NCBI GenBank assembly: GCA_024720975.1 | Contig: JANJXX010000010.1 | Coordinates: 1 to 34,819 of the forward strand | From: Candidatus Panguiarchaeum symbiosum | GTDB taxonomy: Archaea; Asgardarchaeota; Njordarchaeia; Njordarchaeales; Panguiarchaeaceae | Direction of reading: 5' to 3' | Length of the DNA stretch: 34,819 nucleotides | Part shown: positions 23,966 to 25,107 of the stretch, piece by piece | How positions within the stretch are numbered: the first letter of the stretch is position 1 | Layout: each line of letters starts with the position of its first letter | Made by a program: the position numbers and the translations under genes | Notes under the pieces: generated by a model | The model's input: only the letters and a program-made list of their open reading frames with translations | The model's database searches: none | Told to the model about the DNA's origin: nothing

Positions 23966-23972
23966 TTTAAAA
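23966..23972 (+). promoter_or_regulatory. TATA box of the C/D box sRNA
   Basis: TTTAAAA preceded by GAG, about 28 nt before the expected RNA 5' end near 23996. Confidence 0.45.
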
Positions 23973-23995: not shown

Positions 23996-24054
23996 ACCAA
24001 TGATGAGCCAGCTGAGAACTGATCTTAATGATGATTGTTAAAAGCTCTGACTTT
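23996..24054 (+). ncRNA. C/D box sRNA (2'-O-methylation guide)
   Basis: All four boxes are canonical and spaced as in archaeal dual-guide sRNAs: box C ATGATGA (24000-24006), 12-nt guide, D' CTGA (24019-24022), 5-nt spacer, C' ATGATGA (24028-24034), 12-nt guide, D CTGA (24047-24050). The guides are GCCAGCTGAGAA and TTGTTAAAAGCT. By the 'fifth base from D' rule the first targets a C in ...CUCAGCUGGC and the second a U in AGCUUUUAACAA. The first target resembles a tRNA D-arm (GCUCAGCUGG), but that is speculation. A TATA-like box lies at the right distance upstream. The RNA would work with L7Ae, Nop5 and fibrillarin. Confidence 0.85.
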
Positions 24055-24111: not shown

Positions 24112-24705
24112 ATGCGCCTGCTGGTAATTTCCGACACGCATGAAAATGTGAGAGTCCTTGATGCATTGCAGGATGTTATTGGTAAGCTTAAGCCTGAAGT
24201 TGTTATACACTGTGGAGATTTTATCTCACCAATAATCATTAGGAGATTGCTGAGGCTAGATGTAGATATTCAAGGGGTGTTTGGGAATAATGATGGAGAT
24301 GTAGATACAATATCTAGACTAGTAAAGGGTTCAAGAATACTCATAGAGAGTCAGCCCAAAGAGATTGAAATAAATGGTGAGAGAGCACTCGTTTTACATG
24401 GGTGGAAAAGCGTTGAACTGACACGAAGAATGGTGAAATCTCTGGCTCTAGGTGGTGATTATAGGTATATTTTCTACGGACACACGCATAACGTCGAACT
24501 AAGTATAATCAAGAATAGGAATTACCAAGTTCTTCAGGATGGATACAGTGAGGACACATCCTATAAGTTTAAAGTCGATGAATTTGACTCATTGGTACTT
24601 AATCCTGGAGAAGCATCAGGGATTCTAACTGGTATATCTACGTATGCATCGTTAGAGGTTACTAGGGATTATGTTCTAGTTGAAATAAAAAGATTAGAGG
24701 TTTGA
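24112..24705 (+). CDS. MJ0936/YfcE-family phosphodiesterase
   Basis: 197 residues from ATG 24112, preceded by GGTG. The frame is open 28 codons further, but that part overlaps the C/D sRNA and has no conserved residues. Complete metallophosphoesterase motifs: ISDTH (D8, H10), CGD (D36), GNND (59-61 region), LHGW (H96), YGHTH (H124, H126). The GNND variant with short length is typical of archaeal MJ0936-like phosphodiesterases that use Mn or Ni. Physiological substrate unknown (cyclic nucleotide or phosphodiester). TTTTATAT at 24058-24066 probably serves as its promoter. Confidence 0.9.
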   Translation: MRLLVISDTHENVRVLDALQDVIGKLKPEVVIHCGDFISPIIIRRLLRLDVDIQGVFGNNDGDVDTISRLVKGSRILIESQPKEIEINGERALVLHGWKSVELTRRMVKSLALGGDYRYIFYGHTHNVELSIIKNRNYQVLQDGYSEDTSYKFKVDEFDSLVLNPGEASGILTGISTYASLEVTRDYVLVEIKRLEV

Positions 24706-24714
24706 TATTCTAGA

Positions 24715-25107
24715 TCAGAATTTTAGCTCAGTTTCTGAACTCCAAAGGCCGTGAATATTGCAGTATGAAAAAGCAATAAGCTTTCCAGGTTTTTCGGTTC
24801 TAAATGAAAACACAGCAATCGGCTCCGTATAAACCCCACTCGTGTTAGGTCCCTTTACGGATTCTCCATGGGCATTAAACTCAACAAAGCCTAGATCATA
24901 TGGAAAATTGGAGTCTTCGGGCCAGAATAATAGTCTGATCCATCTTATATGATGTTCAGTAGTATTTGGATGCGGAATTTCTTTACCAACGGATACGCGA
25001 ACCGTTATGAGTTTTTTTGCTTCGGCTTTCTCTAGGATCTCAATGACTGGAACGTGCTTTTCGGTTTTCCAATCAGCGGTTTTGAATATGTATGACAATT
25101 TTATCAC
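24715..25107 (-). CDS. sorA: Superoxide reductase (1Fe type, neelaredoxin-like)
   Basis: 130 residues, the usual size for single-domain superoxide reductase, with no desulforedoxin domain. It reduces superoxide to hydrogen peroxide without making oxygen, fed by rubredoxin in anaerobes. Iron ligands are all visible: EKHVP (E16, K17, H18), IPHPNTTEHHIRWI (H46 and H52), and SYCNIHGLW (C116, H119). FNAHGESVKGPNTSGVYTEP matches the Pyrococcus enzyme closely. GTG start without a clear ribosome site; CCTTAAAAAA upstream on the minus strand may be the promoter. No rubredoxin or rubrerythrin gene is nearby. Suggests an anaerobe exposed to oxygen at times. Confidence 0.96.
   Translation of the reverse strand: MIKLSYIFKTADWKTEKHVPVIEILEKAEAKKLITVRVSVGKEIPHPNTTEHHIRWIRLLFWPEDSNFPYDLGFVEFNAHGESVKGPNTSGVYTEPIAVFSFRTEKPGKLIAFSYCNIHGLWSSETELKF

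Follow-up and report, generated by a model that had tools for sequence, protein, structure and literature searches.

Judged by its sequence, an intergenic stretch of 51 bases in the genome of an uncultured Njordarchaeal archaeon is a standard archaeal C/D box sRNA gene. The type of RNA is well known; what is unusual is the combination of its predicted targets. When compared with the genome's own 16S and 23S rRNA and with the 45 tRNAs predicted by ARAGORN, both of its guides find their best match in one and the same molecule, tRNA-Lys(UUU), and we consider it quite probable that the sRNA directs 2'-O-methylation of this tRNA at the wobble base U34 and at C13. The features involved are collected in Table 1; the window is the whole stretch of DNA analysed, with a length of 34.8 kb (34,819 nucleotides).

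Table 1. Coordinates of the sRNA gene, of its surroundings and of two further tRNA-directed sRNAs (positions in the window unless a locus is named; G000 is the genome under study and G001 its same-genus relative)
Feature	Position	Strand	Remarks
TATA-like TTTAAAA, candidate promoter	23966-23972	+	about 27 bases upstream of the likely RNA start
sRNA core, box C to box D	24000-24050	+	perfect boxes; single match in the window; conserved in the same-genus genome
Box C, ATGATGA	24000-24006	+	identical in the same-genus relative
Guide 1 (D' guide), GCCAGCTGAGAA	24007-24018	+	9 Watson-Crick pairs to the tRNA-Lys(UUU) D-arm, CUCAGCUGG
Box D', CTGA	24019-24022	+	identical in the same-genus relative
D'-C' spacer, TCTTA	24023-24027	+	diverged; the relative keeps 1 of the 5 bases
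Box C', ATGATGA	24028-24034	+	holds the ATG opening the false phosphoesterase extension; identical in the relative
Guide 2 (D guide), TTGTTAAAAGCT	24035-24046	+	10 pairs to the tRNA-Lys(UUU) anticodon loop, GGCUUUUAAC
Box D, CTGA	24047-24050	+	identical in the same-genus relative
Calcineurin-like phosphoesterase (Metallophos_2), neighbour outside the sRNA	24112-24705	+	Pfam domain start at ATG 24112
tRNA-Ser sRNA	L152 1500-1551 (G000:C11:89421 region); L272 88-139 (G001)		conserved in both genomes
tRNA-Leu sRNA	L158 1500-1548 (G000:C11:291378 region); L273 78-125 (G001)		

Anatomy, conservation and surroundings of the sRNA gene

The original prediction had described a C/D guide RNA with four perfect boxes in a 12-5-12 spacing, and both boxes and layout were found exactly so: C (RUGAUGA), D' and D (CUGA) and C' (RUGAUGA-like) stand in the proper order, each guide is about 12 nt long, and D' and C' are separated by a few bases only. 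The RNA probably ends a few bases beyond C and D, at about 23996-24054. For the C-D'-C' part, searched as TGATGA-N10-14-CTGA-N2-10-TGATGA, the window has a single match, and 100 dinucleotide shuffles gave none. Moreover, a similar C/D pattern gives ten matches in the whole genome, compared with none for a reversed-pattern control, so that such matches are nearly always real sRNAs in this genome. Fibrillarin, in turn, is encoded in the genome (PF01269, E 8.6e-96), and was found in all three of the genomes on which most of the comparison is based (G000, G001 and, representing a different family of the order, G003).

At gathering score, no Rfam family matches the sRNA. The best match at relaxed threshold is the archaeal C/D family sR3 (RF01133; E 3.3e-5), which has the same box layout but other guides, and of which the sRNA is not a member, its 26.9 bits lying below the gathering score of 41. 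This result is the one point in favour of boxes arranged by chance at the start of a phosphoesterase gene with no RNA gene behind them, an explanation that can be regarded as excluded for practical purposes in view of the shuffles, the double match to a tRNA described below and the block-wise conservation in the related genome.

The sole same-genus genome compared is that of Candidatus Njordarchaeota archaeon B13_G17 (G001, record JAHKKZ010000029.1), the Njordarchaeota being an Asgard group of the kingdom Promethearchaeati. The two sRNAs are identical in 44 of 51 bases, and their alignment runs exactly from the first base of box C to the last of box D, with the same 12-5-12 layout. The boxes, whose loss in close relatives the original prediction had named as evidence against an RNA, are all four unchanged (22/22 bases); 21 of the 24 guide bases are kept, the single change among the 12 bases of guide 1 lying outside the stretch paired with the tRNA, whereas only one of the five spacer bases is retained. 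The 40-base flanks on either side cannot be aligned, their 10-11 identities out of 40 being the chance level. As for the neighbouring genes, those on the left are of the same kind in G000 and G001, namely a phosphoesterase and a reverse-strand gene of 171-180 aa, while the right neighbour is a second phosphoesterase in G000 and an unrelated membrane-type protein in G001. Since boxes and guides are kept and spacer and flanks have diverged, the conserved unit is, by this comparison of sequences, the RNA and not the adjacent gene; what selection preserves is an RNA, not a protein or the DNA context.

All the genomes used are incomplete metagenome assemblies (the three key ones are 73-81% complete), and the 23S rRNA is absent from the G001 assembly. 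In other relatives, loose blastn matches look like chance or shared C' boxes, and a relaxed guide search in the loci L005-L032 gave no match.

RNAs like this one can be hidden by gene callers inside false 5' extensions, as had been claimed for this site. The longest phosphoesterase frame indeed opens at ATG 24028, inside box C'. Both Pfam models, Metallophos_2 and Metallophos, have their profile position 1 at residue 29 of this long frame, i.e. at ATG 24112, which makes the 5' extension false; on this alignment the true start is 24112, and ATG 24028 is merely part of the C' box. In G001, the corresponding ATG runs into a stop within about ten codons. The phosphoesterase gene is adjoined by a reverse-strand gene (24715-25107) for desulfoferrodoxin (PF01880), an ordinary oxygen-defence protein of anaerobes.

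The claim of a TATA-like element fared less well. The motif TTTAAAA is present at a plausible distance, and the A+T content upstream of 25 sRNAs has a weak peak near -30 to -27, but the position is not conserved: nothing like it was found at the corresponding spot in G001, and for this reason its reading as the sRNA promoter is suggestive only.

tRNA-Lys(UUU) as predicted target of both guides

The proposed comparison of both guides with the 16S, 23S and tRNAs of the genome yielded complementary tRNA sites, the best being those of tRNA-Lys(UUU). Guide 1 pairs with C11-G19 of the D-arm (-18.1 kcal/mol; positions are counted along the tRNA sequence), which places C13 at N+5. It had been described as complementary over 10 nt to a tRNA D-arm; the D-arm stands, being that of tRNA-Lys(UUU), and the length is 9 nt, not 10. 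Guide 2 pairs with G30-C39 of the anticodon loop, including one G-U pair, with the wobble base U34 at N+5; the fit of this second guide to the same tRNA is an addition to what had been noted before. Each match by itself is only moderately unusual, with shuffle P values of 0.036 for guide 1 and 0.014 for guide 2. Among 20,000 shuffles, however, none reached an equally good joint match on one tRNA, nor did any of 3,000 judged by summed score. In G001, the guides and the genome's own tRNA-Lys(UUU) give a P of about 0.006 (summed-score shuffle), and the wobble duplex keeps the same target with one A-C mismatch. The sRNA is thus probably a double guide for one tRNA, with Um34 and Cm13 as the predicted products.

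Archaeal C/D sRNAs act on ribosomal RNA more often than on any other class of target (PMC7994747), and the targets might accordingly be split, the D guide acting on U34 of tRNA-Lys(UUU) and the D' guide on the 23S rRNA near position 35 (CUCGGCUGG), instead of or besides the D-arm. Guide 1 forms nine pairs with 23S 31-42, one of them G-U, at -17.5 kcal/mol. We consider this arrangement unlikely, since the tRNA site is wholly Watson-Crick and slightly more stable, sits on the tRNA already chosen by the other guide, and has as its competitor a 23S match that is equalled in 13% of shuffles. Other rRNA sites were rejected: the best 16S or 23S score for guide 2 (14.8) is reached by 92% of shuffles, and for guide 1 a 16S target is not present in this genome.

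The predicted target U34 is also the part of the double-guide reading that can be followed beyond the genus. A pattern composed of a C'-like box, the Lys anticodon guide and a D-type box was searched in 228 genomes of the phylum and matched in five, three of which have the full C/D architecture and belong to this order (G000, G001 and G003). In G003, the guide is the D' guide of a C/D sRNA (AGGTTAAAAGCG), whose positions 2-11 form ten perfect pairs with the genome's own tRNA-Lys(UUU); here, too, N+5 falls on U34. This sRNA is without the D-arm guide, and the D-arm of the G003 tRNA-Lys differs, so that only the Lys-U34 guide is kept; on these alignments the wobble target is the more widely conserved and better supported of the two, while support for the D-arm target comes from a single genus. 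In the order's remaining seven genomes (G002 and G004-G009, 73-90% complete), the strict Lys-guide pattern had no match. The sRNA gene of G003 has a second, divergently oriented C/D sRNA gene at a distance of less than 80 bases, and the two share an A+T-rich upstream region (L276, G003:C46:14150-14420).

In the mechanism that we propose, the sRNA would be transcribed and bound by L7Ae, Nop5 and fibrillarin, and 2'-O-methylation would fall on the target nucleotide opposite the guide base that precedes D or D' by five positions; at both sites this nucleotide lies inside the guide-tRNA duplex. The D guide on the anticodon loop would lead to methylation of the wobble U34, and the D' guide on the D-arm to that of C13. 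Um34 would stiffen the wobble base, with a presumed effect on decoding, and the D-arm site, through pairing or through its methylation, would aid folding or stability of tRNA-Lys(UUU).

The tRNA-Lys(UUU) genes themselves carry an insert in all three genomes (L274 54-147 in G000, L275 59-158 in G001 and L257 50-167 in G003). In G000 and G001 it directly follows the anticodon stem and is apparently a non-canonical intron; in G003 it lies within the anticodon loop. With such an insert after or within the anticodon arm, with guides that pair to the D-arm and the anticodon arm, and with position 2 of guide 1 left unpaired (it is mismatched against G10), the guides could be imagined to act as chaperones rather than in methylation, holding the pre-tRNA open for folding or splicing. 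In three genomes, however, the N+5 geometry points to the wobble base, where methylation is known to occur; we therefore hold a role of this kind alone to be highly improbable and retain guided methylation of U34 and C13 as the preferred reading.

Other sRNAs directed at tRNAs

The ten sRNAs that match the strict pattern in the genome fall into two groups as regards joint complementarity to the same tRNA: in three of them P is 0.0007 or less, and in the other seven it ranges from 0.098 to 0.97, several of the latter matching rRNA strongly. The three comprise the sRNA described above, one on tRNA-Ser and one on tRNA-Leu. The D' guide of the tRNA-Ser sRNA pairs with the D-loop, with G18 at N+5, and its D guide with the junction of variable and T-arm of several Ser tRNAs, so that by complementarity it, too, seems to direct both guides to a single tRNA. 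The D guide of the tRNA-Leu sRNA forms ten perfect pairs with the anticodon loop of Leu(CAA) in both genomes, with C34 at N+5, as known for the guidance of C34 of Leu(CAA) in Pyrococcus; the fit of its D' guide to Leu(UAA) is less clear. Taken together, these cases allow the tentative proposal, to which we give somewhat less than even chances, of a Njordarchaeal class of free-standing C/D sRNAs with both guides on one tRNA (U34 and C13 of Lys, G18 and the T-arm side of Ser, possibly Leu), that is, of a coordinated RNA-guided maturation of individual tRNAs.

Some sRNA genes lie from a few to about 30 bases 3' of a tRNA gene in both genomes (L173 and L170 in G000, L148 and L172 in G001), and these pairs are likely tRNA-sRNA dicistrons.

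Furthermore, 84,980 genomes were scanned for a C box followed by the D-arm guide and a D' box, and this D-arm guide turned up again in C/D sRNAs from archaea of the Thermoproteota type. Two of these, from a Methanomethylicota genome (L119, minus strand, about 2020) and from Culexmicrobium (L130, minus strand, about 2089), have CCAGCTGAG as their D-arm guide and also bear a guide directed at tRNA-Val(UAC) U34; this second guide forms ten pairs with the tRNA-Val of genome G228. The D-arm guide of Culexmicrobium forms ten pairs with tRNA-Arg(CCG). An action of these D-arm guides on the same tRNA as the Val(UAC) guides is not supported, the best sites being on Arg(CCG) in genome G231 and an Ile or Arg site in G228; likewise discarded as support for a shared tRNA were the pattern matches at L182 and L183, which are the sRNAs themselves on the opposite strand. 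A wobble guide and a D-arm guide are thus combined in one sRNA in distant Thermoproteota-type archaea as well, but apparently on two different tRNAs. Finally, two Ignisphaera genomes (L127, minus strand, about 5708; L133, plus strand, 7092) have a common C/D sRNA with the same D-arm guide core CAGCTGAG, the second guides of which are alike in sequence (ACCCGGTTCT).

Comparison with known systems

In the literature examined, no earlier description was found of the wobble U34 of tRNA-Lys as a C/D target, nor of its double use with a second site. C/D guides for position 34 are known from Pyrococcus, where they act on tRNA-Leu(CAA), Leu(UAA), Met and Trp (PMC7994747). The present sRNA shares with them the C/D architecture, the guides of about 12 nt and the location of N+5 at position 34 of one tRNA, but its target, tRNA-Lys(UUU), is absent from those examples. 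It adds a concrete candidate target, in an Asgard lineage, to the few RNA-guided wobble methylations.

The closest parallels concern a pair of sites on a single tRNA. In Sulfolobus acidocaldarius, modification of both U34 and G18 was observed in tRNA-Gln(UUG) and assigned to C/D guides, and Um34 and s2Um34 were argued to make the wobble base more rigid in Sulfolobus tRNAs (PMC7668247). The likeness lies in the combination of the wobble U34 with a D-arm site on one UUN-anticodon tRNA, and the difference in the tRNA and in the D-arm position (predicted C13 here, G18 there). The C/D RNA of the tRNA-Trp intron (sR50) guides Cm34 and Um39 of its own tRNA (PMC4090602); there too, two guides address one tRNA, one of them at the wobble base. 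Unlike sR50, the present sRNA has a free-standing gene and would act in trans and on tRNA-Lys, and the second nucleotide that it is predicted to address belongs to the D-arm, not to the anticodon stem.

In the Pyrobaculum survey quoted in PMC7994747, by contrast, tRNA-targeting sRNAs use only one of their guides, the second being without target, whereas both guides fit the same tRNA here. Should such double guides prove real, the view of singly working tRNA guides based on Pyrobaculum is not valid for all archaea; and if the reading of a whole class of such sRNAs is true, Njordarchaeal genomes have a coordinated maturation of single tRNAs that had been taken for an exception anywhere but in the tRNA-Trp intron.
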